Positions 12,410-43,626 of a DNA stretch of 46,257 bases are shown here, piece after piece. Source of the stretch: Deltaproteobacteria bacterium (GTDB lineage: Bacteria > Myxococcota > Myxococcia > Myxococcales > Anaeromyxobacteraceae). The stretch covers positions 1 to 46,257 of the forward strand of contig JACRMN010000008.1 in NCBI GenBank assembly GCA_016214955.1, given 5' to 3'. Position 1 is the stretch's first letter. The number at the start of each line of letters is the position of its first letter. The notes under the pieces were generated by a model. That model was not told where the DNA came from. It saw only the letters and a program-made list of their open reading frames with translations, and did not search any database. Both the position numbers and the translations under genes were made by a program.

Positions 12410-14218
12410 ATGGCCGCCACCGACCCGGTCGTCTACCTGCGCGGGACTCCGCCCTTCGACTCGCTGCCCGAGCCCCTCTTCGCGGTCGCCTCCCGGGCCC
12501 TGGAGATCGCCTACTACCCGGCCGCCTCCCGCCTGGTGCGGCGCGGCGCCGACCCCCTCGAGCACCTCTACGTCATCCGCAAGGGGGCGGTGCGGCTGGA
12601 GCGCGAGGGGCAGACGATGCAGCTCCTCGAGGAGGGCGAGATGTTCGGCTACACCTCGCTCATCACCAACAAGGCCACCCTCGACGTGGTGGTCGAGGAG
12701 GACCTGCTCGCCTACCGGCTGCCCAGGGCGCAGTTCGAGGCGCTGCTCGCCGATGCCCGCTTCGCCGGCCACTTCGCCGTCGGCCTCTCCGAGCGGCTCA
12801 AGGCCAGCCTGGAGCACTCGCAGGTCACCACCTTCCAGGCCGACCTCTCGGCCCGGGTGGAGCAGCTGGTGCGGCGGCTCCCGGTGCGGGTGCCGGCCAC
12901 CGCCACGGTGGGCGAGGCGGCCCAGGTGATGCGCGACCAGCACGTCTCCTCGGTGCTGGTGGGCACCGAGCCGGAGAGCATCGTCACCGACCGCGACTTC
13001 CGCAACCGCGTGCTGGCGGAGGGCATGGGACCGGATACGCCGGTCCTCCGGGTGGCCTCGTCCAGGCTCAAGACGGTGGCCGCCGAGACGCCCATCTACG
13101 AGGCCTGGACCATGCTCCTCGACTCGGGCGTGCACCACCTGCCCGTGACCCGCGGCAAGGAGATCATCGGCGTCATCACCTCCAACGACCTGCTCAAGGC
13201 CACCGCCCAGGGGCCGGTGGCCGTGCTGCGGCGCGTGGAGCGGCTGGCCTCGCGCGACCAGCTCCCCGGCTACGGCCAGCGGGTCACCGAGATGACCTCG
13301 GCGCTGCTGGCCGGCGGCCTCGACGCCACCGTCATCGCCGGCTTCGTGGCCCGCCTCAACGACGCCCTGGTGCACCGCATCCTCACCTGGGCCGAGGCGG
13401 AGATGGGGCCGCCGCCCTGCGCCTACGCCTGGATCGTCTCCGGCTCGGAGGGGCGCATGGAGCAGACGCTCCTCACCGACCAGGACAACGCGCTGGTGTA
13501 CGCCGACGGCTACCCCGATGCCCGCAGCTACTTCGAGCGGCTCGCCATCCGCGCCAACGACGACCTGGAGGCGGCCGGCTTCCCGCGCTGCCCCGGCGGC
13601 TACATGGCCCGCGAGTGGAACCTGCCCCTCGACGAGTGGACCCAGCGCTTCACCTCCTGGACCAGCGACCAGAGCCCCAAGGCGCTCCTGCGGGCCGCCA
13701 TCTTCGTCGACTTCCGCAAGGTGTACGGCGCCCTCGACCTCGCGCCCTTCGAGGCGGCGGTGCAGCGCGCCGGGCGCGAGCGGGTCTTCATGCAGCGCCT
13801 GGCAAAGGCGGCCCTCGACTCCACCCCGCCGCCGTCGCTGCTCCTGCGGCTGCGGGGCGAGTCGTCGGAGGTCAACATCAAGACCAAGGGCATCACCCCC
13901 ATCGTCTACCTGGCCCGCTGCTACGGCCTGGAGGTGGGCAGCGAGCGGCGCAACACGCTGGAGCGGCTCGACGCCGCGGTTCGCGCCGGCCTGATGGGGC
14001 CCGACGGCCGGGCCATGGTGGGCGAGGCCTACCGCTTCCTCCTCGGGCTCCGCCTCCGCCGCCAGCTCCACATGATCGGCGAGGGGCGCACGCCCACCAA
14101 CGTGGTCTCCTTCGCCGACCTCTCGGCCATCGAGCGCAGCCGGCTCCGCGAGTCCTTCCAGGCCATCCGCGACTGGCAGGAGAAGGCCTCGTACCACTAC
14201 CGCACCGACCTGTTCTGA
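12410..14218 (+). CDS. cNMP-binding / CBS pair / DUF294 nucleotidyltransferase-like protein
   Basis: 602 aa with no membrane segment. Residues about 10-130 form a cyclic-nucleotide-binding-type beta barrel. Residues about 150-210 and 212-270 are two CBS motifs that usually sense adenine nucleotides. Residues about 300-440 are a DUF294 domain with GSEGRMEQ at 345-352 and the paired Asp357 and Asp359, the Pol-beta/GlnD-type nucleotidyltransferase signature. The rest is the helical DUF294 C-terminal domain. This is the standard architecture of the family, whose substrate is not settled. The exonuclease gene starts 9 nt downstream; the pair is conserved in many proteobacteria, often beside acetate permease genes, which are absent here. 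Confidence 0.92.
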   Translation: MAATDPVVYLRGTPPFDSLPEPLFAVASRALEIAYYPAASRLVRRGADPLEHLYVIRKGAVRLEREGQTMQLLEEGEMFGYTSLITNKATLDVVVEEDLLAYRLPRAQFEALLADARFAGHFAVGLSERLKASLEHSQVTTFQADLSARVEQLVRRLPVRVPATATVGEAAQVMRDQHVSSVLVGTEPESIVTDRDFRNRVLAEGMGPDTPVLRVASSRLKTVAAETPIYEAWTMLLDSGVHHLPVTRGKEIIGVITSNDLLKATAQGPVAVLRRVERLASRDQLPGYGQRVTEMTSALLAGGLDATVIAGFVARLNDALVHRILTWAEAEMGPPPCAYAWIVSGSEGRMEQTLLTDQDNALVYADGYPDARSYFERLAIRANDDLEAAGFPRCPGGYMAREWNLPLDEWTQRFTSWTSDQSPKALLRAAIFVDFRKVYGALDLAPFEAAVQRAGRERVFMQRLAKAALDSTPPPSLLLRLRGESSEVNIKTKGITPIVYLARCYGLEVGSERRNTLERLDAAVRAGLMGPDGRAMVGEAYRFLLGLRLRRQLHMIGEGRTPTNVVSFADLSAIERSRLRESFQAIRDWQEKASYHYRTDLF

Positions 14219-14227
14219 TCGGCCCCG

Positions 14228-14824
14228 ATGCTCTTCTCCTCGCCGCCGTGGGACTCGGTCGTCTACTGGGCGCTCGACCTGGAGACCGGCGGGCTCGACG
14301 TGCGCCAGGACCCCATCCTGGCGGTGGGCATGGTGCCGCTGCGCCAGGGGATCATCCGGCTGGGCGAGTCCTACGCCACGCTGGTGCGGCCGCCGCGGCC
14401 CGAGGCCATCAACCCCTCCTCCATCCAGGCCCACCAGCTCGTCTGGGGCGAGGTGCGCGAGGCCCCGAGCGTCCTCGACGTGCTCCAGGCCATCGACGGC
14501 CGGCTGCGGGAGGGCGTGCTGCTGGTCCACGAGGCCCGCATCGACGTCGGCTTCCTCAAGAAGGCCTACGCCGGCTGCGGCCTGCGCTGGCCGGCGCCGC
14601 CGGTGGTGGACACGGTGGACCTGCTCTGGAAGGCGGCCCGCATGGCCCACTTCACCGACCCCAGCCCCGCCGAGCCCACGCTCAACCTGGCGGCGGCCCG
14701 GGCCGAGCTGGGGCTGCCCGCCTACCCGGCCCACGACGCGCTGACCGACGCCGTCTCGGCGGCGGAGCTCTTCCTGGTCCTGCGCCGGAAGCTGGGCGCG
14801 AAGAAGCTGCGGGAGCTGCGGTAG
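14228..14824 (+). CDS. DnaQ-like DEDDh 3'-5' exonuclease, DUF294 partner
   Basis: 198 aa. The ExoI motif is ALDLETGG (Asp17, Glu19), ExoII is VHEARIDVGFL with the third acidic residue, and ExoIII is AHDALTDA with the His and Asp of the DEDDh class. It resembles the proofreading subunit family, but its position 9 nt behind the DUF294 gene marks it as the DUF294-linked type. A linked role, such as processing a nucleotide or RNA end handled by the partner, is an inference. No Shine-Dalgarno site is evident, so translation probably depends on the upstream gene. It converges with the YfiR-like gene, 11 nt between stop codons. Confidence 0.9.
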   Translation: MLFSSPPWDSVVYWALDLETGGLDVRQDPILAVGMVPLRQGIIRLGESYATLVRPPRPEAINPSSIQAHQLVWGEVREAPSVLDVLQAIDGRLREGVLLVHEARIDVGFLKKAYAGCGLRWPAPPVVDTVDLLWKAARMAHFTDPSPAEPTLNLAAARAELGLPAYPAHDALTDAVSAAELFLVLRRKLGAKKLRELR

Positions 14825-29554: not shown

Positions 29555-30015
29555 GTCGCCCGCGCCTTCCCCTCGGGGTGCACGGTCAGCACCGGGCAGC
29601 CGGCGCGCCGCACCACCCGCTCGGCGGTGGAGCCGAGCAGCGCGTGGCGCAGGCCGGTGCGCCCGTGGGTGCCCACCACCATGAGGTCCTGCTGCTGTTC
29701 CCGGGCGAAGGCCACGATCTCGCTCGCCGGCTCGCCCACGCTCTTGGCGACCCGCACGTTGCGGGCCCCCATCCCCTCGGCGACCGCGCGCCACTCCTGC
29801 AGGTGGGCCTCGGCCTGGTCGGCCAGCTCCTGCAGCATCTTGGGGCTGGCGACCACCGAGCCCTCGGGCAGGGTGTAGCCGGGGAGCTGGTAGGAGTGGA
29901 ACAGCGTCAGCTCCGCGCCGAAGGCGGCGCAGAGGTCCACCGCGACCCGCAGCGCCTCGCGAGAGGGATCGCTGAAGTCGATGGGGCAACAGATCCGCTT
30001 CCAGCCGATGGCCAT
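29551..30015 (-). CDS. Universal stress protein (UspA family)
   Basis: 154 aa, a single Usp domain. It begins WKRICCPIDFSDPSREALRVA and ends with the ATP-binding pattern GTHGRTGLRHALLGSTAERVVRRAGCPVLTV, which has the G-x2-G-x9-G-S/T spacing of nucleotide-binding members. Such proteins act in the cytoplasm under starvation or stress. No good ribosome site or -10 box is seen at the ATG at 30015. Its stop codon (29551-29553) overlaps the stop of the Gly-rich lipoprotein gene on the other strand. Confidence 0.92.
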   Translation of the reverse strand: MAIGWKRICCPIDFSDPSREALRVAVDLCAAFGAELTLFHSYQLPGYTLPEGSVVASPKMLQELADQAEAHLQEWRAVAEGMGARNVRVAKSVGEPASEIVAFAREQQQDLMVVGTHGRTGLRHALLGSTAERVVRRAGCPVLTVHPEGKARAT

Positions 30016-30191
30016 GGTCCGTGGAGCGGCTCGCCCGGATGCTGCGGCAGGGCCGCCAGCCTCCTTCCGAGTCGAGGATACGCCTTCTGCGCGCCTCCGC
30101 TCACCTGTCGCGTCCTCCCGCCGCAGGGGGTTCCCGGCAGGCGGGTCGGGCGAGCCCCGCAAAGGGTGGCGCACCCGCCCCCTCGCCCTGC

Positions 30192-30197
30192 TAGGGA
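30192..30197 (+). promoter_or_regulatory. Candidate -10 element of the homogentisate operon
   Basis: TAGGGA, in the context GCTAGGGATT, ends 8 nt before the ATG at 30206. The last base does not match TANNNT. No -35 box is evident. Confidence 0.35.
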
Positions 30198-30205
30198 TTC
30201 GCGGC

Positions 30206-31180
30206 ATGCGACTCGCGACGCTGCGCGATGGAACCCGCGACGGCCTGCTGGCCGTGGTGCGGGGGGACGGGGAGGCGCTCACGCCCGCCGGGGCCGTGGC
30301 CGGCACGCTGCAGCAGGCGCTCGACGGCTGGGCGGAGGTCGAGCCCCGGCTGCGGGCGCTGGCCGCCGACCTGGAGGCCGGGCGGGCGCCGGCCCGGAAG
30401 CTCGACCCCCGCGCCCTGCACTCGCCGCTGCCGCGGGCCTACGAGTGGGTGGACGGCTCCACCTTCCTCAACCACACGCGGCTGGTGCGGCGGGCCCGCG
30501 GGGCGCTGCCGCCGCCAACCCTGGAGACCGAGCCGCTCGTCTACCAGGGCGGGGGCGGGGTGCTGCTGGCGCCCACCGACCCCATCCCCCTCGGCGATCC
30601 CGGCTGGGGGCTCGACCTCGAGGGCGAGGTCTGCGTGATCCTCGGCGACGTGCCCATGGGCACGCGCGCCGCCGGGGCCGAGGGCTGCATCCGGCTCCTG
30701 TGCCTCGCCAACGACCTCACCTTCCGCAACCTCGTGCCCACGGAGATGGAGAAGGGCTTCGGCTTCTTCCAGTCGAAGCCGGCCACCGCCTTCAGCCCCT
30801 TCGCCGTCACCCCCGACGAGCTGGGCCCGGCGTGGCGCGGCGGCCGGCTGCACCTGCGCATCACCGTGCGGCTCAACGGTGCGCTCCTCGGCGACCCGGA
30901 CGCCGGGCCGGAGATGCACTTCTCCTTCCACGACCTGGTGCAGCACCTGGCGCGCACGCGGGCCTTCACCCCCGGGACCATCCTGGGGAGCGGCACCGTC
31001 TCCAACGCCGACGAGGCCCGCGGCGTCACCTGCCTGCAGGAGCGGCGGGTGCGCGAGACCATCGGCGCCGGGCAGCCGCAGACCCCTTTCCTGCGGGCAG
31101 GGGACCGCGTGGAGATCGAGATGCGCGACGGCGCCGGGCGCAACCTCTTCGGCACCATCGACCAGGTGGTGGTGCCATGA
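30206..31180 (+). CDS. fahA: Fumarylacetoacetase-family hydrolase
   Basis: 324 aa from the ATG at 30206. It matches the bacterial FAH family of tyrosine-degradation operons: MRLATLRDGTRDG, PLPRAYEWVDGSTFLNH, the metal-binding LDLEGEVCVILGDVPMG, LANDLTFRNL, then SKPATAFSPFAVTPDELG and GTILGSGTVSN near the C-terminus. The reaction splits fumarylacetoacetate into fumarate and acetoacetate, the last step of the pathway. It is first in a four-gene operon; its TGA overlaps the ATG of maiA (ATGA). No Shine-Dalgarno site precedes the start. Confidence 0.92.
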   Translation: MRLATLRDGTRDGLLAVVRGDGEALTPAGAVAGTLQQALDGWAEVEPRLRALAADLEAGRAPARKLDPRALHSPLPRAYEWVDGSTFLNHTRLVRRARGALPPPTLETEPLVYQGGGGVLLAPTDPIPLGDPGWGLDLEGEVCVILGDVPMGTRAAGAEGCIRLLCLANDLTFRNLVPTEMEKGFGFFQSKPATAFSPFAVTPDELGPAWRGGRLHLRITVRLNGALLGDPDAGPEMHFSFHDLVQHLARTRAFTPGTILGSGTVSNADEARGVTCLQERRVRETIGAGQPQTPFLRAGDRVEIEMRDGAGRNLFGTIDQVVVP

Positions 31181-31830
31181 AGCTCACCCTCTACTCCTAC
31201 TGGCGCTCCTCCTGCTCCTGGCGCGTGCGCATCGGCCTGGCGCTGAAGGGCGTGCCCTTCGACTACCGCGGCGTGGACCTGCTGAAGGGCGAGCAGTGGG
31301 ACGAGGCCCACGGGCGGCGCAGCCCCCTGCACCAGGTGCCGGCCCTGGAGGTGGAGGAGGGCGGCCGCACCGTCACCCTGGTGCAGTCGATGGCGATCCT
31401 GGAGTGGCTCGAGGAGCGCTTCCCGGCGCCGCCGCTCCTGCCCCGCGACCCGGAGGGGCGCGCCCGGGTGCGGGCCATCGCCGAGCACGTCAACGCCGGC
31501 ATCCAGCCCTTCCAGAACACCTCGCCGCGGAAGCTCCTGGCCGCCGAGCGCAAGGGGCTGGAGGACGAGTACACCCGCCACTTCCTGGCCCTGGGGGTGC
31601 GAGGGCTGGAGGCGGCGGTGGCCGCGGGCGCGGGCCGCTTCTGCCACGGCGACGCGGTGTCCCTCGCCGACCTCTACCTCGTGCCACAGCTCTTCGGGTG
31701 CCGCCGCTTCGGCGTGGACCTGGCGGGCTGCCCCACCCTGCTGCGCGTCGAGGCGGCCTGCAACGAGCTCCCCGCCTTCCAGGCCGCGCTGCCGGAGCGG
31801 CAGCCGGACGCGCCGCGCCAGGAGGCCTAG
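31177..31830 (+). CDS. maiA: Maleylacetoacetate isomerase (zeta-class GST)
   Basis: 217 aa. The zeta-class active-site motif SSCSWRVRI lies at residues 11-19. NPLHQVP-type SPLHQVPALEVEE, VQSMAILEWLEERFP and the helical C-terminal domain with NAGIQPFQN follow, all typical of MaiA. It isomerises maleylacetoacetate to fumarylacetoacetate with glutathione. Use of a glutathione-type enzyme is worth noting, because glutathione synthesis genes are not in view. The start overlaps the fah stop by 4 nt, and hpd begins 1 nt after its stop codon. Confidence 0.94.
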   Translation: MKLTLYSYWRSSCSWRVRIGLALKGVPFDYRGVDLLKGEQWDEAHGRRSPLHQVPALEVEEGGRTVTLVQSMAILEWLEERFPAPPLLPRDPEGRARVRAIAEHVNAGIQPFQNTSPRKLLAAERKGLEDEYTRHFLALGVRGLEAAVAAGAGRFCHGDAVSLADLYLVPQLFGCRRFGVDLAGCPTLLRVEAACNELPAFQAALPERQPDAPRQEA

Positions 31831-31831
31831 C

Positions 31832-32998
31832 ATGGCAGTCGAGCCCATCGGCATCGTCCGCCTCGAGGCGCTGCACTACTACGTGCACGACCTGGAGCGC
31901 TCGCGCCGCTTCTACGTGGATCGGATGGACTTCGCCGAGACGGCGCGCTCCTCGCCGGAGCTCACCCGCGACGGCCGGCAGCGCTCGGCGACGTTCGAGG
32001 CCGGCAAGGTGCGGGTGGTCTGCTCCGAGCCGGTGCGCGAGGGAGGCCGGGCCTGGCGCTGGCTGCGCAAGCACCCCGACGGCGTGGGCTCCCTGGTCTT
32101 CGAGGTGGAGGACGCCGCGAGGGCCTTCGCGCTCCTCGAGGCCCGGGGCGCCACCCCCATCACCGACCTGCTGCGCTTCCGCGACGCCGGCGGCGAGCTC
32201 TTCACCTTCCACGTCACCACCCCCTTCGGCGACACCACCTTCCGCTTCGTGGAGCGGCGCGGCTACCAGGGGCTCTACCCGGGCATCGACCGGCTGCCCT
32301 CGCCCACCGGCGGCCACAACCGCTTCGGCTTCGCCGCCTTCGACCACGTCACCTCCAACTTCCAGACCATGAAGCCGGCGCTCCTGTGGATGGAGCACGT
32401 GTTGGGCTTCGAGGAGTTCTGGGAGGTCCAGTTCCACACCCGCGACGCCGCCGGGGAAGCGCGGCGGGCCGCCATGCAGGCCCACGGCTCGGGGCTGCGC
32501 TCGGTGGTGATGCGGGACCCGAAGAGCCACGTGAAGTTCGCCAACAACGAGCCCTGGCGCCCGGCCTTCAAGTCCTCGCAGATCAACGTCTTCAACGAGG
32601 AGCTCCGCGGCGACGGCGTGCAGCACGCGGCGCTGCTGGTGCCCGACATCCTCTCCACCGTCGAGGGGCTCCGGGGCCGCGGCGTCGAGTTCATGCCCAC
32701 CCCGGCCAGCTACTACGAGGTGCTGCCGGCGCGGCTGGAGCGCATCGGCGTGGGGCGCATCGACGAGGCCATCGCGCGGCTGCAGGAGCTGCAGATCCTG
32801 GTCGACGGCGGCGCCCCCGGCTCCTACATGCTGCAGATCTTCCTGCGCGAGTCGTCGGGCCTCTACCACGAGCCCGCGGCCGGCCCCTTCTTCTACGAGA
32901 TCATCCAGCGCAAGGGGGACCAGGGGTTCGGCGCCGGCAACTTCCGCGCCCTCTTCGAGAGCATCGAGCGGGAGCAGCAGAAGGGGGAGAGCCGGTGA
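31832..32998 (+). CDS. hpd: 4-hydroxyphenylpyruvate dioxygenase
   Basis: 388 aa, the expected length. Two vicinal-oxygen-chelate domains are visible. The iron ligands are His172 in FDHVTSN, His265 in GVQHAALLV and Glu356 in FFYEIIQRKG. The C-terminal string GFGAGNFRALFESIE is the family hallmark. It turns 4-hydroxyphenylpyruvate and oxygen into homogentisate and CO2 in the cytoplasm. AGGAGG lies 6 nt before the ATG, the best ribosome site of the operon. Its stop overlaps the GTG start of hmgA. Confidence 0.97.
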   Translation: MAVEPIGIVRLEALHYYVHDLERSRRFYVDRMDFAETARSSPELTRDGRQRSATFEAGKVRVVCSEPVREGGRAWRWLRKHPDGVGSLVFEVEDAARAFALLEARGATPITDLLRFRDAGGELFTFHVTTPFGDTTFRFVERRGYQGLYPGIDRLPSPTGGHNRFGFAAFDHVTSNFQTMKPALLWMEHVLGFEEFWEVQFHTRDAAGEARRAAMQAHGSGLRSVVMRDPKSHVKFANNEPWRPAFKSSQINVFNEELRGDGVQHAALLVPDILSTVEGLRGRGVEFMPTPASYYEVLPARLERIGVGRIDEAIARLQELQILVDGGAPGSYMLQIFLRESSGLYHEPAAGPFFYEIIQRKGDQGFGAGNFRALFESIEREQQKGESR

Positions 32999-34239: not shown

Positions 34240-34851
34240 GTGAACAAGAACACCATCATCGGCGCACTGGTCGGACTCGTGGTGGGCGGGCTCGGGGGCT
34301 ACACGCTCGGCATGAGCGACGGCCGCGCGGCCGCGGCCCGGGGCGGCCCCATGGGCGGCGCCCTGCCGCCGGGCATGCCGCCCCCGGGCATGGGGGCGCC
34401 GGCCCCGATGCCCAACCCGCAGGCGCTGCAGGCCGAGGCCTTCCAGCGCATCGAGATCAACCGCAAGCTCACCCAGACCGATCCCAAGGCGCGGCCGGCC
34501 TGGGTGGCGCTGGGCAACGACTACTTCGACACCCGCCAGTTCCAGAAGGCCATCGAGGCCTACGAGCAGGCGCTCGCGCTCGACCCCAAGGACCCCGACG
34601 TCCTCACCGACCAGGGCGTGATGTTCCAGGAGCTGGGCCAGTACGACAAGGCCATCGCCAACTTCGAGAAGGCCAGCAAGCTCGCCCCCACCCACGTCCA
34701 GAGCCTCTTCAACATCGGCGTGGTGCAGGCCAACGGCAAGAAGGATCCGCAGAAGGCCGCCGCCGCCTGGAAGAAGGTCATCGAGCTGGCCCCGCAGAGC
34801 CCGCAGGCCCAGGCGGCGCGGCAGGCGCTCGACCAGATGGGCGTGAAGTGA
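34240..34851 (+). CDS. Membrane-anchored TPR protein, 203 aa
   Basis: GTG start with GGAGG 6 nt upstream. Residues 5-25 are a hydrophobic, Gly-rich helix (IIGALVGLVVGGLGGYTLG) that anchors the protein. A Gly/Pro/Met-rich linker runs from 35 to 65. The C-terminal part has three TPR units: AWVALGNDYFDTRQFQKAIEAYEQALALDP, the following VLTDQGVMFQELGQYDKAIANFEKA and a third with IGVVQANGKKDPQKAAAAWKKV. It resembles small TPR proteins that assemble envelope or cytochrome complexes; no specific partner is indicated. It converges with the giant TPR gene. Confidence 0.82.
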   Translation: MNKNTIIGALVGLVVGGLGGYTLGMSDGRAAAARGGPMGGALPPGMPPPGMGAPAPMPNPQALQAEAFQRIEINRKLTQTDPKARPAWVALGNDYFDTRQFQKAIEAYEQALALDPKDPDVLTDQGVMFQELGQYDKAIANFEKASKLAPTHVQSLFNIGVVQANGKKDPQKAAAAWKKVIELAPQSPQAQAARQALDQMGVK

Positions 34852-34864
34852 CCGCCCGGCGGCC

Positions 34865-37800
34865 TCACTCCTCCGCGAAGGCGCCGGCCGCCGACATCCC
34901 GGCCAGGAACAGGAACGGCGCCCGCAGGCGGCTCCGGCGCCGGGCCACGGCCCAGACCGCCCTGCGCCGGTAGCGGCGCAGGAAGGGCTCGCGCCGGGAG
35001 GTCCGGGCGCCGAACCGCCCCCGGCGCAGGTGGTCCATGGCCGCGAGCCAGGCGGGGCGGGGGTCGTCTCCCGCAAGCCCGGCCGCCACCGCCAGCGCCA
35101 GCTCCGCCAGCTGCCGGGCGTACCCGCTCTCGGGGAGGACCACGCCCGCGAGCGGATCGGGCGCGCTCGCCAGGGCGGCATCGCTCGCCAGGTAGATGCG
35201 GTGGCTGGCGGTGCAGTGGTCCTCGGGCAGGCCCAGCGCCGCCCGGCCCACCTCGCGGGCCTCTTCCTCCCGGCCGAGGTCGCGCAGCGAGGCCACCAGG
35301 TTGATCAGCATCCAGGGGCGCAGCCCCTCGCGGCCCCGCCAGCCCGCCATCCAGGCGACGACCTGCCGGTGCTGGCGGGTGCTCGACAGGGCGAAGCCGC
35401 CCGTGCCCCAGGCGTAGACGTCGGCCTGGAGCGCCTCGCGATGGCGGCGCAGCAGGGCGCGGATGGCCCGCGGGCGCCGCGCCGTGGCCAGCCGCTCCAG
35501 CCACTCGGAGGCCGCCCCCAGCGCCGCCGGGGCCGCCGGCGACTGCGCCAGCGCCCGCCGCAGCACCCGCCCGCCCCGCAGCCAGCGCCCGCTCGCCGCC
35601 GCGCGCCCCGCCCACAGCGCCCCGGCGTGGCGCGCCACCGCCGGGTCACCGAGCGCCCCGGCGAGCGCCCGGTCGAGGTCGGCACCCCAGCCCGCGCCGT
35701 CGAGCGCCTCGGCCAGCTCCTGGCCGCCCCAGCGCGGGCACCGCAGCAGGGGCCCGAGCCCCTCCACCGCCCGCTGCCGGTCCCCGCCCCGCGCCGCGAG
35801 GCGAACGGCCCCGAGCCGCGCCTCGCCCGGGCCGAGGTGGCGCTCGACGAGCTCCAGCGTCCGGCGCGCCGCCTCCTCCTCCCGGTCCTCGATCTCCAGG
35901 GCCAGCAGGCGGCGCAGCGCCCAGGGGTAGGCGGGATCCAGCTCCAGCGCGCGCCGCAGGGCCCCCTTGGCCTCCTCGCGCGCTCCGGTGGCCAGCAGCG
36001 CCTGGCCCCGGAAGCCGTGGGACACCGGCCGGTGGGGCGCGAGGCGCACCAGCTCGTCGGCCGCCTCCAGCGCCGCGGCCGGGTCGCCGCGCTCCTCGTC
36101 CCAGTCGGCCCTGAGCTGCCAGGCCTCCAGGTAGTCGGGCTCGGCCCGCAGCAGCGCCCCGAGGTCCTCGAGCGCGCCGGGGCGATCCCCGCGGGCGCCG
36201 CGCAGCCGCACGGCGCGCAGCTGCAGCGAGCGCGGCGGCGTCTCGCCGAAGACGGGCGGCCGGCAGGCGGCCAGCGCCTCGTCGTGCCGGCCCGCGTCGG
36301 CGAGGGCGTCGGCGCGCAGCTCCCAGGCCTGCAGGCTCTGCGGGTCGGCGCGGGTCGCCTCCTCCAGGGCCGCCAGCCTGTCGGCCGGCGCGCGCGAGGC
36401 CAGCGCCACCAGCACCCAGGCCCGGGCGTCGCGGGGCCGCTCCTCGGCGATGGCCTGCGCCAGGGCGCGAGGCCTGCCCGCTTCGCCCCGGTCCTCGCGG
36501 AGCTGCACCAGGGTGTCCCAGGCCCATCGGTAGCCGGGGTCGAGGCGCAGCGCCCGCTCGAGCTGCTCCAGGGCCTCGGCCTCCCGCCCCGCCAGCCGCA
36601 GGGCGTCGGCGAGCCAGCCGTGCAGCAGCGCCTCGCCGGGCGCGTGGCGCAGGGCCCGCTCCAGCACCTGCCGCTCGGCCTCGAGCTCCCCCGCCTCCTG
36701 AAGCAAGCCGGAGAGGTCGATGGCCGCTTCGGGCCAGGACGGCGAGAGGGCCACGGCCCGCTCCAGGGCCCGCCGGCGGGCGTCGCGGTTCCCGAGGAGC
36801 CGCTCGACCTGCGCCTGCTCCACGGCGATGCGCGGGAGCAGCGGGAACCGCTGCGCCGCCTGGGCGAGGAGCGCCCGGGCCTCGGCGAGCGCGCCGGCGT
36901 GCACCTGCTGGCGGGCCAGCGCCACCCAGGCCTGCCACAGGTCGGGCCGCTGCCGGTGGCCCTCGCGCAGGTTCTCGAGCAGCTCCGCCGGATCGAGGAT
37001 CCGCTGCGCCAGGGCCTGGTACTCGAGGAGCCCGTCGCCGAGGAGCACCTGCCGGCGCAGCTCGGCCAGGGCGGCGGCCAGGTGGGCGCGCCGCTCCGCG
37101 GCGTCGGCCGAGAGGTCAAGGAGGCGCCGCAGCGCCCAGCCTTCGTCGGCGGCGCAGGCCAGCGACTCCAGCAGCTCGGCCTTGGCCTCGGCGGTGCGTC
37201 CGGCCCGCTGGAGGACCAGGGCCCGCACGTTGTGCAGCGACGCCGCCGAGGGGTCGATGGCGCGGGCCCGCTCCAGGGCGGCCAGGGCCTCGTCGGCGCG
37301 CCGCTGGGCCGAGAGGTTCGCGGCCAGCTCGCGCCAGGCCCAGGCGTCGGAGGGGTGGTGCCCGAGCAGCCGCCGCAGCTCGGCCTCGGCCACCGGCTCC
37401 GGCTCCTCGTCGAGCCAGCCCACCAGCACCTGGGCCAGCCCCTGGTGGTGGGGGAAGCGCTCTACCTGGCGCCGCAGCGCGGCCAGCGCCGCCGGGCGGC
37501 CCCGGGTCGCGGCGGTGAGCCGCGCGGCAGCCCGCGCCGCCACCACGTCGAGCGGCTCGACCTCGGCCACCGACGACCAGAGCTCGGCGGCCCGCCCCGC
37601 CTCCCCCGCCCGCTCGGCCAGGGAGGCCTCGGCCCGCAGGAGCTCGACAGGCCGCACCGAGCCCCGCGCCCGCTCCAGCAGCGCCCAGGCCCCGGCGAAG
37701 TCGCCCGAAACGGCCCGCACCCGCGCGGCCAGGAGCAGCAGCGCCCCGTCGGCGGGCCGGCGCACCAGTGCCTGCTCCAGCTCGGCATTCGCCTCCGCCG

Positions 37801-39835
37801 TCCGCTCCAGCGTGTCGAGCGACTCGAACAGCGTCACCACCGGCTGGCCCGACCGGCCTCCCTGGCGCCGCACGCGCCAGCGCAGGAGGTCCAGCCCCTC
37901 CTCGCTTCGCCCCAGCCACCGCGCCGCGCGGAAGTGGACCTCGGCGTACCGCTCGTCGGTCCACTCCAGGCAGGCGGCGGCGCGGTAGGCGGGCAGGGCC
38001 TCCTCGCGCTCCTGCCGCTCCCAGCGCACGTTTCCCAGGAGCAGGTAGCCGGCGGCGTCGTAGGGCCGCGCCTGGAGCACGCGCCGGCACAGCGCCTCGG
38101 CCTCAGGCAGGGCCCGGGCGTCGAGGCGGATGGCCTCGGCCAGCGCCCGGGTGAGGAGCGGGTGGCCGGCGCGGGCGCACTCGGCCCGCAGGTACTCCAC
38201 CTGCGCCGTGCGGCGGCCCAGGTCGGCCAGCGAGGCCTGCTTGGCGAGCCTCAGGTTGACGTCGTCGGGGAAGAGCGCGAGGAGCGCCTCGGTGGCTGCC
38301 AGCCGCGCCTCCTCGTCGCCGTCGTAGGCGGCCAGGGCCCGCGCCGCCTGCAGCGCCAGCCGGTGGCCCGGCGCCCGTGCGTCGAGGCTGCGGCGCAGCC
38401 CCTCGGCCTCGTCGCGGCGGTGGGCGACCAGGGCCGCCTGCACCCCGTGGTAGAGGTCGTGGAGGTCCGCTTCGGGCAGGTCGAGGCCGTCGAGCAGCGC
38501 CTCCTTGCCCGGCGGGACGGGCACCATGCCGCGGGGCCCGCAGGCCCGGTAGTCGTCGAGCCCCGGCTCGGCGAGCTCGGTGAGGGAGCGGAAGGAGGGG
38601 TCGCGGATGAGCAGCGTGGCCCGCGACTCGTCGTAGCCCACCACCGCCTGCAGGTGGGCGCTCCCCGGCTCGACGGTGGTGAGGGTGAAGGGGAGGCCGC
38701 GGTCCACCAGGGCCTTCGCCGCCGCCCAGGTGACGGTGAACTCCCGCACCCGGAAGCCGCGTTCCTGGGCCCAGCGCCGCTCGGCCCAGTCGGGCGTGCC
38801 GTCGTAGCAGATGGCCTCGGCGATCTCGAGGTGGAGCGCCTCCACGCCGTGGAAGCCGGAGAGGCTGGCCAGCGTGGCCGGCGCGCAGGTCTTGTCGTGC
38901 TGGCGCACCGAGGCGACGGGCAGCACGCGGCGCGGCCCCTGGCGCCCCGCCTCGAGGCGGTCGGCCAGCCGCTGGTGGAAGGGGCTCCGCGAGGCGCGCG
39001 CCAGGCGGATGGTGGCCTCGCGGTCGCCCTGCAGCCAGGCGAGGTCGGAGCGGCGCTGGGCCAGGTAGGCCTCGAAGGCGCGGCTCCGCAAGGGAGAGAG
39101 CTCCTCGACGCGCGCCAGGGTGCGCGCCGCCTCGTCCTTCTCCTCCCTCTCCATCTGCAGGTTGAGCAGCGTCCAGGCGATCCCGGCGCTCTCCAGGCGC
39201 CAGGTGGCGTCGCGCAGCAGCGCCAGGGCCTCCTCCTCCCGCCCCAGGCTCACCAGCAGGTCGGCGCGGGCCTCCAGCGCCGGACGGTAGGAGGGGCGCA
39301 GCCGCAGGGCCTCGTCCACCGCGGCCAGCGCGCCGTGGGGATCGTCGGCCGATCCCAGGACGTGGGCGCGCTCCAGCCGGATCCAGGCGCGCGACGGCTC
39401 GAGCGCCTCGGCCCGGGCGATGAGCCCCTCGGCCGCCGAGAAGTCCTTGAGCAGGGCCGCTGTGCTGGCCCACAGCGCCAGGGTCTCGGCGCCCGGCTCG
39501 GCGAAGGGGCCCCCGCGGCGCAGCATGGCCAGGGCGGCGAAGGCGCCGCGGCGCGAGAGCACGGTCCGCACCACCCAGCCCCAGGCCCGCTCCGAGTCCG
39601 CGTGCCGGCGCCGCAGCCGGAGGTAGAGCCGGTTCGAGAGCGGCGTGTTGCCGAGCTGGGCCGCGAGCTGGGCCGCCAGGATGCTGGCGTCGAGCCCGGT
39701 CCACGCCGTCAGCGGCCCGGCCGGCGCCGCGGCTCGCCAGGCCTGCAGGTAGAGCCCCTGCTCGTAGAGCCGCCGCGCCTCCTCCAGGGCGGGCACGGCG
39801 TGATCCACGATTGGGGCGTCGTCGGAGATGTCCAT
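34865..39835 (-). CDS. Giant TPR protein with an embedded C39-like cysteine peptidase domain
   Basis: 1656 aa. No signal peptide is visible. Residues 1-300 are TPR-like helical pairs. Residues about 302-440 form a C39-like papain-fold domain with the catalytic set in order: Gln312, Cys317 (RQHDKTCAPATL), His394 (SAHLQAVVGYD) and Asp412 (LLIRDPS). From about 450 to 1620 follow more than 25 TPR-like repeats with strings such as ADALADAGRHDEALAACRP and ALRRALELDPAYPWALRRL. The C-terminus is basic with one weakly hydrophobic patch (APFLFLAGMSAAGAF). A peptidase domain inserted between TPR arrays is unusual. The protein could process or bind a substrate captured by the repeats; no peptide or transporter gene is adjacent. 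The start has no good ribosome site. Confidence 0.88.
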   Translation of the reverse strand: MDISDDAPIVDHAVPALEEARRLYEQGLYLQAWRAAAPAGPLTAWTGLDASILAAQLAAQLGNTPLSNRLYLRLRRRHADSERAWGWVVRTVLSRRGAFAALAMLRRGGPFAEPGAETLALWASTAALLKDFSAAEGLIARAEALEPSRAWIRLERAHVLGSADDPHGALAAVDEALRLRPSYRPALEARADLLVSLGREEEALALLRDATWRLESAGIAWTLLNLQMEREEKDEAARTLARVEELSPLRSRAFEAYLAQRRSDLAWLQGDREATIRLARASRSPFHQRLADRLEAGRQGPRRVLPVASVRQHDKTCAPATLASLSGFHGVEALHLEIAEAICYDGTPDWAERRWAQERGFRVREFTVTWAAAKALVDRGLPFTLTTVEPGSAHLQAVVGYDESRATLLIRDPSFRSLTELAEPGLDDYRACGPRGMVPVPPGKEALLDGLDLPEADLHDLYHGVQAALVAHRRDEAEGLRRSLDARAPGHRLALQAARALAAYDGDEEARLAATEALLALFPDDVNLRLAKQASLADLGRRTAQVEYLRAECARAGHPLLTRALAEAIRLDARALPEAEALCRRVLQARPYDAAGYLLLGNVRWERQEREEALPAYRAAACLEWTDERYAEVHFRAARWLGRSEEGLDLLRWRVRRQGGRSGQPVVTLFESLDTLERTAEANAELEQALVRRPADGALLLLAARVRAVSGDFAGAWALLERARGSVRPVELLRAEASLAERAGEAGRAAELWSSVAEVEPLDVVAARAAARLTAATRGRPAALAALRRQVERFPHHQGLAQVLVGWLDEEPEPVAEAELRRLLGHHPSDAWAWRELAANLSAQRRADEALAALERARAIDPSAASLHNVRALVLQRAGRTAEAKAELLESLACAADEGWALRRLLDLSADAAERRAHLAAALAELRRQVLLGDGLLEYQALAQRILDPAELLENLREGHRQRPDLWQAWVALARQQVHAGALAEARALLAQAAQRFPLLPRIAVEQAQVERLLGNRDARRRALERAVALSPSWPEAAIDLSGLLQEAGELEAERQVLERALRHAPGEALLHGWLADALRLAGREAEALEQLERALRLDPGYRWAWDTLVQLREDRGEAGRPRALAQAIAEERPRDARAWVLVALASRAPADRLAALEEATRADPQSLQAWELRADALADAGRHDEALAACRPPVFGETPPRSLQLRAVRLRGARGDRPGALEDLGALLRAEPDYLEAWQLRADWDEERGDPAAALEAADELVRLAPHRPVSHGFRGQALLATGAREEAKGALRRALELDPAYPWALRRLLALEIEDREEEAARRTLELVERHLGPGEARLGAVRLAARGGDRQRAVEGLGPLLRCPRWGGQELAEALDGAGWGADLDRALAGALGDPAVARHAGALWAGRAAASGRWLRGGRVLRRALAQSPAAPAALGAASEWLERLATARRPRAIRALLRRHREALQADVYAWGTGGFALSSTRQHRQVVAWMAGWRGREGLRPWMLINLVASLRDLGREEEAREVGRAALGLPEDHCTASHRIYLASDAALASAPDPLAGVVLPESGYARQLAELALAVAAGLAGDDPRPAWLAAMDHLRRGRFGARTSRREPFLRRYRRRAVWAVARRRSRLRAPFLFLAGMSAAGAFAEE

Positions 39836-40023
39836 GCGCTGCCGGGGCTCGCCGGTGCAACCCAGCCTCTCCGTGAGAGTAGCCCGAGCCGCCGGCGGCG
39901 CGGAAATCTGCGGAGGGCGGCACCCACCGGGACGCCGCCCGCCCGGGTGGCCCCATCGCGGGCCCGCCCCCTGCGGTGCGTTGACGGAGAGTGGCGCGGC
40001 CCTCGCCGCGCCATCGCCCCTGC

Positions 40024-40029
40024 TATCCT
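40024..40029 (+). promoter_or_regulatory. Candidate -10 element of the GNAT gene
   Basis: TATCCT ends 6 nt before the ATG at 40036. TTGACG occurs at 39981-39986 but is too far away to be its -35 box. Confidence 0.45.
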
Positions 40030-40035
40030 GCCGCC

Positions 40036-40536
40036 ATGCTCACCATCCGCCCCGCCGAGCCGCGCGACGCGGCCCTGCTGCTCCAGCTCGTCCGCGAGCT
40101 GGCCGAGTACGAGAAGCTGGCCCACGAGGTGGAGGCCACCGCCGAGGACTTCCTCCGCGACGGCTTCGGCCCGCGGCCGCGCTTCGAGGCCGCCGTGGCC
40201 GAGTGGGACGGCACCCCGGCCGGATTCGCGCTCTGGTTCTACAACTACTCCACCTTCGCCGGCCGCCACGGCCTCTACCTCGAGGACCTGTTCGTGCGCC
40301 CCCCCTTCCGCGGCAAGGGGATCGGCAAGGCGCTCCTGGTCCACCTGGCCGGCCTGGCCGCCGCCCAGGGCTGCGCCCGGTACCAGTGGCAGGTGCTCGA
40401 CTGGAACACCCCCTCCATCCGCTTCTACGAGGCGCTGGGAGCCCGGAAGTTCCCGGAGTGGCTGACCATGCGCGTCGCCGGTCCGGACATCGCCCGGCTG
40501 GCGGGGCAGCAGCCGGCCCCACCCCGGGTTCCTTGA
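40036..40536 (+). CDS. GNAT N-acetyltransferase (diamine acetyltransferase-like)
   Basis: 166 aa, one GNAT domain. It starts MLTIRPAEPRDAALLLQLVRELAEYEKL, typical of the spermidine/spermine acetyltransferase-like subgroup. FNYSTF-like FYNYSTFAGRHGLYLEDLFV follows, then the acetyl-CoA pyrophosphate loop RGKGIGKALL. The last part is DWNTPSIRFYEALGA, where the catalytic Tyr lies in these enzymes. It acetylates a primary amine; the polyamine preference is an inference from similarity. It is monocistronic and divergent from the giant TPR gene. Confidence 0.9.
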   Translation: MLTIRPAEPRDAALLLQLVRELAEYEKLAHEVEATAEDFLRDGFGPRPRFEAAVAEWDGTPAGFALWFYNYSTFAGRHGLYLEDLFVRPPFRGKGIGKALLVHLAGLAAAQGCARYQWQVLDWNTPSIRFYEALGARKFPEWLTMRVAGPDIARLAGQQPAPPRVP

Positions 40537-40604: not shown

Positions 40605-41108
40605 GTGAGCCAGCCCGCCGCCCCCGAGATCTCGCCCCCGCCCCCCGGCCGCGTGCGCGCGCCGCAGGACCTCTTGGCCGGCGGGAGCCTGGTGGCGCTC
40701 TCCGCCTTCGCGCTCTGGGCCGGCCGCGAGCTGCCGGGGGGCCGGCTCGGCGCCATCGGAGCCGGCTTCCTGCCTCGGGTGCTGGCGACGCTCGTCGGCG
40801 TGTGCGGCCTGTGGCTCGTGGCCTTCGCCTTCCTGCGGCGCGGCGATCCGCTGGCGCGCTGGTCGCTGCGGCCGGCGCTGTTCGTGTGCCTGGGGGTGGT
40901 GGGCTTCGCGCTCACCATCCGCTCGCCCGGCCTGGCGGTGGCCGGGCCGCTGGTGGTGCTGGTGAGCGGCGCCGCGTCGCCCGAGACCCGCGCTCGCGAG
41001 CTCCTCCTGTTCGCGGCCGTCCTCACCGCCGCCTGCACCGTGCTCTTCCGCTTCCTCCTCCACCTGCCCATCCCCATCCTGCGCCTCGGCGGCTGGGTGA
41101 ACCTCTAG
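40605..41108 (+). CDS. tctB: Tripartite tricarboxylate transporter small membrane subunit TctB
   Basis: 167 aa from a GTG with GGAGG 9 nt upstream. Four hydrophobic helices and the pattern DLLAGGSLVALSAFALWAGRELPGG ... GAGFLPRVLATLVGVCGL fit TctB proteins. The N-terminal 20 residues are Pro-rich and cytoplasmic. It partners with TctA in a secondary, binding-protein-dependent carboxylate importer. tctA begins 2 nt after its stop codon, so the genes are one operon. Confidence 0.9.
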   Translation: MSQPAAPEISPPPPGRVRAPQDLLAGGSLVALSAFALWAGRELPGGRLGAIGAGFLPRVLATLVGVCGLWLVAFAFLRRGDPLARWSLRPALFVCLGVVGFALTIRSPGLAVAGPLVVLVSGAASPETRARELLLFAAVLTAACTVLFRFLLHLPIPILRLGGWVNL

Positions 41109-41110
41109 CC

Positions 41111-42613
41111 ATGGCCGACCTGCTCGCCAACCTGTCGCTGGGCTTCCAGGTGGCCCTCTCCCTGCAGAACCTGGGGCTGGCGCTGGTGGGCTGCCTGGTG
41201 GGGACGCTCATCGGCGTGCTCCCCGGCGTGGGCCCCATCGCCACCATCACCATGCTCCTGCCCATCACCTTCGGCATGCCGCCGGTGGGGGCGCTCATCA
41301 TGCTGGCCGGCATCTACTACGGCGCCCAGTACGGAGGCTCCACCACCGCCATCCTGGTGAACATCCCCGGCGAGGTGACGGCGGTGGTCACCACCCTCGA
41401 CGGCCACCAGATGGCGCGCCAGGGGCGCGCCGGCGCGGCGCTGGGCGTGGCGGCGCTGGGCTCTTTCTTCGCCGGCTGCGTGGCCACGGTGGTCACCGCG
41501 GCGCTGGCGGTGCCCCTCACCCGCCTGGCGCTCGTCTTCGGCCCGGCCGAGTACGCCTCCCTCATGACCATGGGGCTCGCCTTCGCGGTGGTGCTGGCCC
41601 GCGGGTCGATCCTCAAGTCCATCGCCATGACGCTCATCGGGCTGCTGCTCTCCACCGTGGGCACCGACCTCGAGACCGGCGTCGAGCGCATGACCTTCGG
41701 CCAGAACGCGCTGGCCGACGGCATCGACTTCGCGGTGCTGGCCATGGGGCTCTTCGGGTTCGCCGAGGTGCTGCGCAACCTCGACGGCGCCGGGGCCCGC
41801 GACGTGGTGCACAAGGCCATCGGGCGGCTCCTGCCCTCGGGGCCGGAGCTCCGCCAGTCGGCCGGTCCGGCGGCGCGCGGCACGCTCCTGGGCGCGGTGC
41901 TGGGCATCCTCCCCGGCAACGGGGCCGTGCTCGGCCCCTTCGCCTCCTACGCGCTGGAGAAGAAGCTGGCCAGGGACCCGAGCCGCTTCGGCCGCGGCGC
42001 CATCGAGGGCGTGGCCGGGCCGGAGGCGGCCAACAACGCCGGGGCCCAGACCTCCTTCATCCCGCTGCTCACCCTGGGCATCCCGCCCAACGCCGTCATG
42101 GCGCTGATGGTCGGGGCCATGACCATCCACGGCATCGTGCCCGGCCCGCTGGTGATGAGCCGCAACCCGTCCCTGTTCTGGGGGCTGGTGGTCAGCATGT
42201 GGATCGGCAACCTCATGCTGCTGGTCATCAACCTGCCGCTCATCGGGCTGTGGGTGCGGCTCCTGCGGGTGCCCTACCGGCTCATGTTCCCGGCCATCCT
42301 CCTCTTCTGCTGCATCGGCATCTACTCGGTGAACAACTCGCCCTCCGACGTGCTCTTCACCGCCGGCTTCGCGCTGGTGGGCTACGCCGCCGGCAAGGTG
42401 GGCTTCGAGAGCGCGCCGCTCCTGCTCGGCTACGTGCTGGGCCGCCTGCTGGAGGAGAACCTGCGCCGCGCCCTGGCCATCGCCCGCGGCGACCTCGCCA
42501 CCTTCCTCCACCGCCCCATCAGCGCCGGCCTGCTCGCCGTGGCGGTGCTGGTGCTGGGCGTCGCGCTGCTGCCCTCCATCCGCCGGGGGCGCGAGGAGGT
42601 CTTCACCGAGTGA
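41111..42613 (+). CDS. tctA: Tripartite tricarboxylate transporter large membrane subunit TctA
   Basis: 500 aa, the normal family length, with about twelve membrane helices. The two conserved family motifs are clear: GTLIGVLPGVGPIATITMLLP with the following GIYYGAQYGGSTTAILVNIPGE, and in the second half GAVLGILPGNGAVLGPF with PEAANNAGAQTSFIPLLTLGIPPNAVMALM. It is the transport channel of the system, driven by an ion gradient. The next gene, tctC, follows after 41 nt. Confidence 0.96.
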   Translation: MADLLANLSLGFQVALSLQNLGLALVGCLVGTLIGVLPGVGPIATITMLLPITFGMPPVGALIMLAGIYYGAQYGGSTTAILVNIPGEVTAVVTTLDGHQMARQGRAGAALGVAALGSFFAGCVATVVTAALAVPLTRLALVFGPAEYASLMTMGLAFAVVLARGSILKSIAMTLIGLLLSTVGTDLETGVERMTFGQNALADGIDFAVLAMGLFGFAEVLRNLDGAGARDVVHKAIGRLLPSGPELRQSAGPAARGTLLGAVLGILPGNGAVLGPFASYALEKKLARDPSRFGRGAIEGVAGPEAANNAGAQTSFIPLLTLGIPPNAVMALMVGAMTIHGIVPGPLVMSRNPSLFWGLVVSMWIGNLMLLVINLPLIGLWVRLLRVPYRLMFPAILLFCCIGIYSVNNSPSDVLFTAGFALVGYAAGKVGFESAPLLLGYVLGRLLEENLRRALAIARGDLATFLHRPISAGLLAVAVLVLGVALLPSIRRGREEVFTE

Positions 42614-42654
42614 CCCGCCGCGACCCGCCCCACCCCCGATCGAAAGGAGCCACC

Positions 42655-43626
42655 ATGCGCCTCTTCGCCCTCCTCCTCCTCGCCGCCCTCTCGCTGCCGC
42701 AGCGCGCCGCCGCCGCCTGGCCGGAGCGCCCGGTGACCATGATCGTCCCCTTCGCCGCCGGCGGCCCCACCGACGTGGTGGCCCGCATCGTGGGCGAGCA
42801 CATGTCGCGCACGCTGGGCCAGCAGGTGGTCATCGAGAACGTGGCCGGCGCCGGCGGCACCACCGGCATCACCCGGGCCGCCCAGTCGGCGCCCGACGGC
42901 TACACCATCATGATGGGCCACATGGGCACCCACGGCGCTGCGCCGGCGGTGTACCCCGGGCTCAAGTACGACCCGGTGAAGGACTTCGCCCCGGTGGGCA
43001 TGGCCGCGGGCACACCCATCGTCATCGTGGCCAAGAAGGCCTTCCCGGCAAAGGACCTGGCCGAGTTCGTGGCCTACGCCAGGAAGAACGGCGACAAGCT
43101 CAACGAGGGGCACGCCGGGGTGGGCTCGGTGTCCTTCACCACCTGCTCGCTCCTCAACTCGGTGCTGGGCATCAAGCCCACCCGCGTCGTCTACCGCGGC
43201 ACCGGCCCGGCGCTGAACGACCTGGTCTCCGGCCAGATCGACTACATGTGCGACCAGATCGTGAACCTGGTGCCCCAGATCCAGGCGGGCACCATCCGCG
43301 CCTACGCCGTGGCCCTGCCGGCCCGCTCCCCTGCCCTCCCCGACGTGCCCACCACCAAGGAGGGCGGCCTGCCCGAGTACCAGGTCAGCGCCTGGAACGC
43401 GGTGTTCGCCCCCAAGGGCACGCCCCGGGAGATCGTGACCAGGCTCAACGGCGCGCTCCTCCAGGCGCTGGCCGACCCGGCCACCCGCAAGCGGCTCCTC
43501 GATCTGGGCGCCGATCTCTCCGACACGGCCTCGCAGTCGCCGGAGGGGCTGCAGAAGCTGGTGGAGAGCGAGGTGGCCCGCTGGTCGAAGGTGCTGAAGG
43601 AGACCGGCGCGGCCGCGCCCAAGTAG
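42655..43626 (+). CDS. tctC: Tripartite tricarboxylate transporter binding protein TctC (Bug family)
   Basis: 323 aa. AAAGGAG lies 6 nt before the ATG. A signal peptide of about 20 residues ends in AAAAW. The mature protein starts PERPVTMIVPFAAGGPTDVVARIV, the Bug-family opening, and has ENVAGAGGTTG, DGYTIMMGHMGTHG, FAPVGMAAGTPIVIV and the NDLVSGQIDYMCDQ pattern. It binds a carboxylate in the periplasm through two water-bridged loops. The ligand (citrate, tricarballylate, nicotinate, aromatic acid or other) cannot be read from sequence. A perfect hairpin follows the gene. Confidence 0.95.
   Translation: MRLFALLLLAALSLPQRAAAAWPERPVTMIVPFAAGGPTDVVARIVGEHMSRTLGQQVVIENVAGAGGTTGITRAAQSAPDGYTIMMGHMGTHGAAPAVYPGLKYDPVKDFAPVGMAAGTPIVIVAKKAFPAKDLAEFVAYARKNGDKLNEGHAGVGSVSFTTCSLLNSVLGIKPTRVVYRGTGPALNDLVSGQIDYMCDQIVNLVPQIQAGTIRAYAVALPARSPALPDVPTTKEGGLPEYQVSAWNAVFAPKGTPREIVTRLNGALLQALADPATRKRLLDLGADLSDTASQSPEGLQKLVESEVARWSKVLKETGAAAPK

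Follow-up and report, generated by a model that had tools for sequence, protein, structure and literature searches.

C39 peptidases are best known either as domains borne by exporters, where they cut leader peptides, or as single-domain peptidases. Papain-fold enzymes holding the same catalytic residues can also be acyl- or peptidyl-transferases, and the system known as TPR-CHAT resembles, in its repeat-plus-protease design, the protein of 1656 amino acids described here. The members of C39_2 have been reported to be single-domain peptidases with extra decorations, and those of PF03412 to be fused to ABC transporters; in the same work, C39_2 has been placed near the acyltransferase BtrH and phytochelatin synthase (PMC10318531). 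C39-like domains without catalysis have also been described, in type I exporters (PMC6363468).

The window analyzed in this study (the whole stretch of DNA, 46,257 nucleotides) comes from a member of the Anaeromyxobacteraceae (Myxococcota). It encodes a protein with the C39 fold embedded in a tetratricopeptide repeat (TPR) solenoid that appears to be cytosolic and has a length and a domain order that are fixed in at least five phyla.

The gene and its product

An open reading frame for 1656 amino acids runs on the minus strand from an ATG at 39835 to 34865. This frame had been reported in an earlier note on the sequence without indication of its strand, which is supplied here. The minus frame has been taken as the true gene because of its codon-position GC pattern (GC1/2/3 = 0.84/0.55/0.97) and because full-length homologues match its product at 37-39% identity; on the same grounds, an ORF on the plus strand (35030-40465) has been discarded as a shadow. 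The features assigned to the gene, with the evidence for each of them, are as follows:

34865..39835, minus strand: whole gene, encoding the 1656-aa TPR-C39-TPR protein (ORF, Pfam, GC, homologues)
38939..39808, minus strand: N-terminal TPR solenoid, residues ~10-299 (AlphaFold2 model, VIA-align matches)
38501..38935, minus strand: C39 papain-like peptidase domain, residues ~301-445 (PF13529, AlphaFold2, fold search, conservation)
38900..38902, minus strand: codon of Gln312, oxyanion-hole position (homologue conservation)
38885..38887, minus strand: codon of Cys317, putative nucleophile (homologue conservation)
38654..38656, minus strand: codon of His394, putative general base (homologue conservation)
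38600..38602, minus strand: codon of Asp412, putative third residue of the triad (homologue conservation)
35768..38500, minus strand: main TPR solenoid, residues ~446-1356 (Pfam and NCBIfam TPR matches; start in the AlphaFold2 model)
35006..35767, minus strand: C-terminal region, residues ~1357-1610, helical or repeat-like by eye (conservation of 0.28-0.47, alignment)
34868..35005, minus strand: basic Trp-containing C-terminal tail, residues ~1611-1656, with possible membrane contact (family-wide enrichment in Trp and Arg/Lys)

A papain-like fold between two TPR arrays

The presence of a C39-like domain buried inside the TPR protein, with Gln312, Cys317, His394, and Asp412 in place, had been proposed from the sequence alone, and both the domain and the four residues have been found. 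Pfam Peptidase_C39_2 (PF13529) matches residues 307-413 with E=2.4e-7 and 31.9 bits, above the gathering cut-off of 24. When the own genome was searched with PF13529, this protein was the sole match, with 37.8 bits. The domain modeled alone with AlphaFold2 from 9 sequences (pLDDT 78.6, pTM 0.79) shows the papain-like fold of Peptidase_C39_2, with Cys, His, and Asp and an upstream Gln. Foldseek searches with this model placed the ComA peptidase domain at the top (E 1e-6) and PCAT1 next, with staphopains, LahT, and also HlyB at lower ranks. In VIA-align 2 superpositions, Z-scores of 15-18 span PeiR (Z 17.7, 2.1 Å, 136 residues aligned), LahT (Z 16.3, 2.5 Å, 132 aligned), ComA (Z 16.2, 2.5 Å, 132 aligned), and PCAT1, and the phytochelatin synthase Alr0975 also appears among the fold matches (Z about 14.5-14.8). 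Structure prediction and superposition on C39 peptidases, the check suggested in the earlier note, have therefore yielded a papain/C39 fold and not the unrelated fold that would have spoken against the proposal. At the sequence level, a profile built from 46 family members brings the Cys, His, and Asp into register with their ComA counterparts, although the match by itself is weak (E 0.011), and phmmer found no match in the PDB for the C39 domain sequence alone.

The TPR arrays postulated on both flanks of the domain are borne out by an AlphaFold2 model of residues 1-641 (42 homologues; pLDDT 93.1, pTM 0.90), in which a TPR solenoid extends to residue ~295, the C39 domain occupies ~302-440, and TPR helices resume from ~456. 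The N-terminal solenoid consists of helical pairs, mostly with pLDDT >90, and has VIA-align matches to TPR solenoids. To judge from the pTM, the arrangement of the TPR and C39 parts relative to each other appears to be well defined in the model. Pfam TPR models match the repeat regions, and NCBIfam TPR matches extend to about residue 1356.

Conservation and selection

Across 45 full-length homologues, Gln312, Cys317, and His394 do not vary, and Asp412 is conserved in 98%, with Glu in the remainder. When the comparison was extended to 73 distinct domain sequences, Gln312, Cys317, and His394 were each present in 72 (the exception for His394 is a sequence that is cut off), and the position of Asp412 was held by Glu in L072 and L098. 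The other exceptions in this set are L083, a cut-off fragment; L113, a PA2778-type protein with Ser at the Asp position; and the distant relative L112, in which Ser replaces the Cys. The four residues are thus kept in essentially all homologues, and the loss of Cys or His, which had been named as the observation that would argue against the proposal, is not regular. L112 (2014-5148, plus strand) encodes a Planctomycetota TPR protein of 1044 aa with a C39-like domain, and its sequence makes it a possible pseudo-enzyme branch. As this protein lacks the Cys, proteins with this architecture need not be catalytic.

In the 45 homologues, conservation peaks in the C39 core, with block identities of 0.65-0.74 against values mostly of 0.45-0.55 elsewhere, and the C-terminal region (~1357-1610) is less conserved (0.28-0.47). 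Family-specific invariants appear around Gly346-Thr347 and Trp355 and in the Gly433-Pro-Arg-Gly436 motif. The domain is under purifying selection: its dN/dS ranges from 0.007 to 0.30 and lies below that of the rest of the protein in 9 of the 9 close pairs yielding values, which are rough owing to the short domains and to some near-saturated pairs. Column occupancy is near 1.0 across nearly the whole alignment, indicating that the number of repeats is held fixed. According to its sequence, the C39 domain is probably active.

Distribution of the family

When the GTDB species set was scanned, about 52 loci with relatives of the protein were found, distributed in at least five phyla (Pseudomonadota, Planctomycetota, Verrucomicrobiota, Myxococcota, and Armatimonadota, assigned from the record titles). 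Nearly all complete relatives exhibit the TPR-C39-TPR order; most of them have about 1640-1760 aa, and the C39 domain begins about 285-310 residues into the likely protein. The search for proteins with this order, which had also been recommended, hence uncovered a conserved and widely scattered family, including a shorter Planctomycetota branch (about 640-720 aa) that maintains the order and retains Q, C, H, and D.

In the host phylum, strong homologues were found in 8 of 195 genomes, own genome excluded: six in one genus, G045, and the distant G065. A query with a longer piece gave only one other match among the first 60 relatives. With the family profile, strong hits (E about 1e-30 or better) were obtained in at least 27 of 294 genomes of Planctomycetota and in at least 11 of 298 of Pseudomonadaceae; in the latter, PA2778-family proteins are among the weak hits, which have about 326 aa. 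The family occurs in culturable Pseudomonas and Myxococcus. Two hits, L031 and L032 (G141 and G022), were discarded as chance hits in which the motif is absent. In the homologue of G045 (L029/L043), the reading frame changes near L029:7252-7223, which separates the C39 domain from the TPRs that come after it; this is either a pseudogene or an assembly error. A close homologue (L036) is found in a MAG labeled Bordetella parapertussis, a bin whose organism label looks doubtful.

The distribution is patchy in some groups, and no match to the family was found in 72,556 plasmids. Horizontal mobility has been rejected on the basis of the gene tree, which mostly groups by phylum, with deep branches that are not resolved. 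No NCBIfam equivalog scores above its cut-off, and no family name was found in Pfam or NCBIfam. The C39/C39_2 domain family is already known; for the fixed TPR-C39-TPR arrangement, no description was found in the open-access literature searched.

Genomic context

The flanks of the gene encode a GNAT protein, TctA/TctC, a small TPR protein, a glyoxalase-family protein, and FAH. The adjoining genes are a divergent GNAT gene on one side and the convergent small TPR gene on the other, and therefore the geometry indicates that the large gene is its own transcription unit. The small TPR gene (34240-34851, plus strand) encodes a separate 203-aa protein, and its end and that of the large gene are 14 bases apart. 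TctA and TctC (40802-43626, plus strand) belong to a tripartite tricarboxylate transporter, which is an importer and not a peptide exporter. At 29981-32998 (plus strand), a fumarylacetoacetase-type hydrolase is followed by a protein with two glyoxalase domains, probably HPPD-like, a gene pair that suggests aromatic amino-acid catabolism. Elsewhere in the window (12410-14824, plus strand), a cNMP-CBS-DUF294 nucleotidyltransferase adjoins an RNase_T-type exonuclease. No peptide exporter or leader-peptide gene is present in the flanks read, as the earlier note had stated.

The neighborhoods of the homologues were scanned as 93 proteins from mechanically chosen ORFs, a selection that may miss very small genes. 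Among them, no family recurs across phyla, including ABC exporters, HlyD, and small-peptide families. The commonest Pfam families, NA37 and NMT1_3 (4 of the 93 proteins), correspond to the NdpA-like and TAXI-like genes found beside the Pseudomonas loci. There is, then, no conserved partner gene among the neighbors examined, and the function therefore looks self-contained. In the own genome (95.6% complete), no C39 ABC exporter was found, and the sole PF03412 match is a protein of 197 aa, apparently exported and with no transporter fused. This protein, the second C39 protein of the genome (L118 1435-2028, minus strand, contig C29), holds a signal/lipobox-like N-terminus (LAACATAGG).

Cellular location and C-terminal tail

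No signal peptide or lipobox was seen by eye at the N-termini of the protein and its homologues, and the protein has no strong hydrophobic segment (maximum Kyte-Doolittle value of 1.22 over 19 aa), in support of the cytosolic location that had been predicted. The last 40 residues of 36 proteins are enriched in Trp (6.7% vs. 2.7%) and Arg/Lys (20% vs. 12%), while Asp/Glu are scarce (4% vs. 14%). L059, L060, L072, L073, L074, and L076 exhibit a strongly hydrophobic end segment (Kyte-Doolittle >1.8). This composition suggests that the Trp/Arg-rich tail, or the hydrophobic end that replaces it in some members, touches the cytoplasmic membrane.

Proposed mechanism and alternatives

With moderate confidence, we propose that this protein is an intracellular C39-fold cysteine endopeptidase whose giant TPR solenoid captures and presents a client. 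The C39 domain would be a rigid module inside the solenoid of a stand-alone enzyme. The repeats, the length of which is fixed across phyla, would bind a protein or a peptide and present it to the Cys317/His394/Asp412 center, with Gln312 in the oxyanion hole. This center would have peptidase activity, and the C39 domain may cut the client captured by the repeats. The basic Trp-rich tail may keep the protein in contact with the cytoplasmic membrane on its inner side. A bolder version, according to which these proteins are ancient giant solenoid cysteine proteases, tethered by Trp/Arg to the inner membrane, that cut one TPR-threaded client in a design like that of separase without descent from it, is doubtful.

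The main rival is a papain-fold transferase or ligase (acyl-, peptidyl-, or transglutaminase-like) that would use the same Cys-His-Asp to modify the TPR-bound client. Simple hydrolysis does not explain the family-specific invariants mentioned above, and both the match to Alr0975 and the placement of C39_2 near BtrH and phytochelatin synthase (PMC10318531) point to such an enzyme. Nevertheless, ComA, PCAT1, and staphopain, which Foldseek ranks nearest, are genuine peptidases, and Pfam assigns the domain to a peptidase-like family, so that a transferase is considered unlikely.

The remaining explanations are less likely because of the points against each of them. ComA, PCAT1, and LahT, the nearest solved relatives, cut Gly-Gly leaders, and the protein could be a leader peptidase for double-glycine peptides acting in trans on behalf of an exporter whose gene lies elsewhere. 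However, short leaders need no solenoid of >1000 residues, and neither the neighborhoods of the homologues, where no exporter, HlyD, or small-peptide family recurs, nor the own genome, where a C39 ABC exporter was not found, provides a suitable partner; this role is quite improbable. Even less credible is a mobile anti-phage defense module with the TPRs as the sensor, the protease as the killing component, and a logic like that of TPR-CHAT. The shared repeat-plus-protease design and the patchy distribution agree with it, but PADLOC gave no convincing full-domain match, only two partial ones that fall within the repeats (E 0.0015 and 0.0095). In addition, the family is absent from the plasmids searched, its chromosomal setting beside NdpA-like and TAXI-like genes is conserved in Pseudomonas, and the gene tree largely follows phyla. 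A non-catalytic scaffold that binds peptides, like the C39-like domain of HlyB, is just as hard to sustain, since Cys and His are invariant in 45 of 45 full-length homologues over great divergence and dN/dS in the C39 domain is low, even if HlyB is among the fold matches, L112 has no Cys, and type I exporters include examples of non-catalytic C39-like domains (PMC6363468).

Comparison with known systems

The domain belongs to Peptidase_C39_2 (PF13529) by its score above the cut-off, its papain fold, and its Q-C-H-D arrangement, and differs in that it sits inside a TPR solenoid of >1000 residues in a protein where no signal peptide was seen. With ComA, PCAT1, and LahT (PF03412), it shares the predicted fold and the catalytic Cys, His, and Asp. 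In contrast to these peptidases, no ABC transporter is fused or nearby, and the Gln precedes the Cys by 5 residues and not by 6 as in LahT (Gln21/Cys27, PMC6363468). The protein does not have the N-terminal fusion to an ABC exporter of the Gly-Gly leader peptidases (PCAT, PF03412), as it holds no transporter domain and the flanks no exporter.

The PA2778 family (NF033920) also presents a C39 domain followed by TPRs. Its members L113 and L114, which score 328-333 bits on NF033920, have 325-352 aa, an N-terminus resembling that of lipoproteins, and a C39 domain located N-terminally, and share the Gln-x4-Cys spacing with the TPR-C39-TPR family. Moreover, the Pseudomonas homologue L057 shows a weak colinear match (residues 313-549 to profile positions 5-240, 58.8 bits). 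The TPR-C39-TPR family, however, has ~300 TPR residues ahead of the C39 domain. The 1656-aa protein is not a PA2778 member: it reaches 45.7 bits against a cut-off of 150, with the best stretch in the TPR part, its C39 domain is located at ~300 and not at the N-terminus, and no lipoprotein-like signal is present (no lipobox by eye). PrsT (TIGR02917) has also been rejected, with 137.6 bits against a cut-off of 312 and similarity in the repeats only.

In design, the protein resembles eukaryotic separase, another giant helical solenoid that holds a Cys protease. The structural match to separase (9hn5) concerns the TPR part only (Z 15.3, 291 residues, 6.1 Å rmsd). The protease of separase has a caspase-like fold, whereas that of the protein described here is papain-like, and there is no evidence of common descent, so the likeness is one of design.
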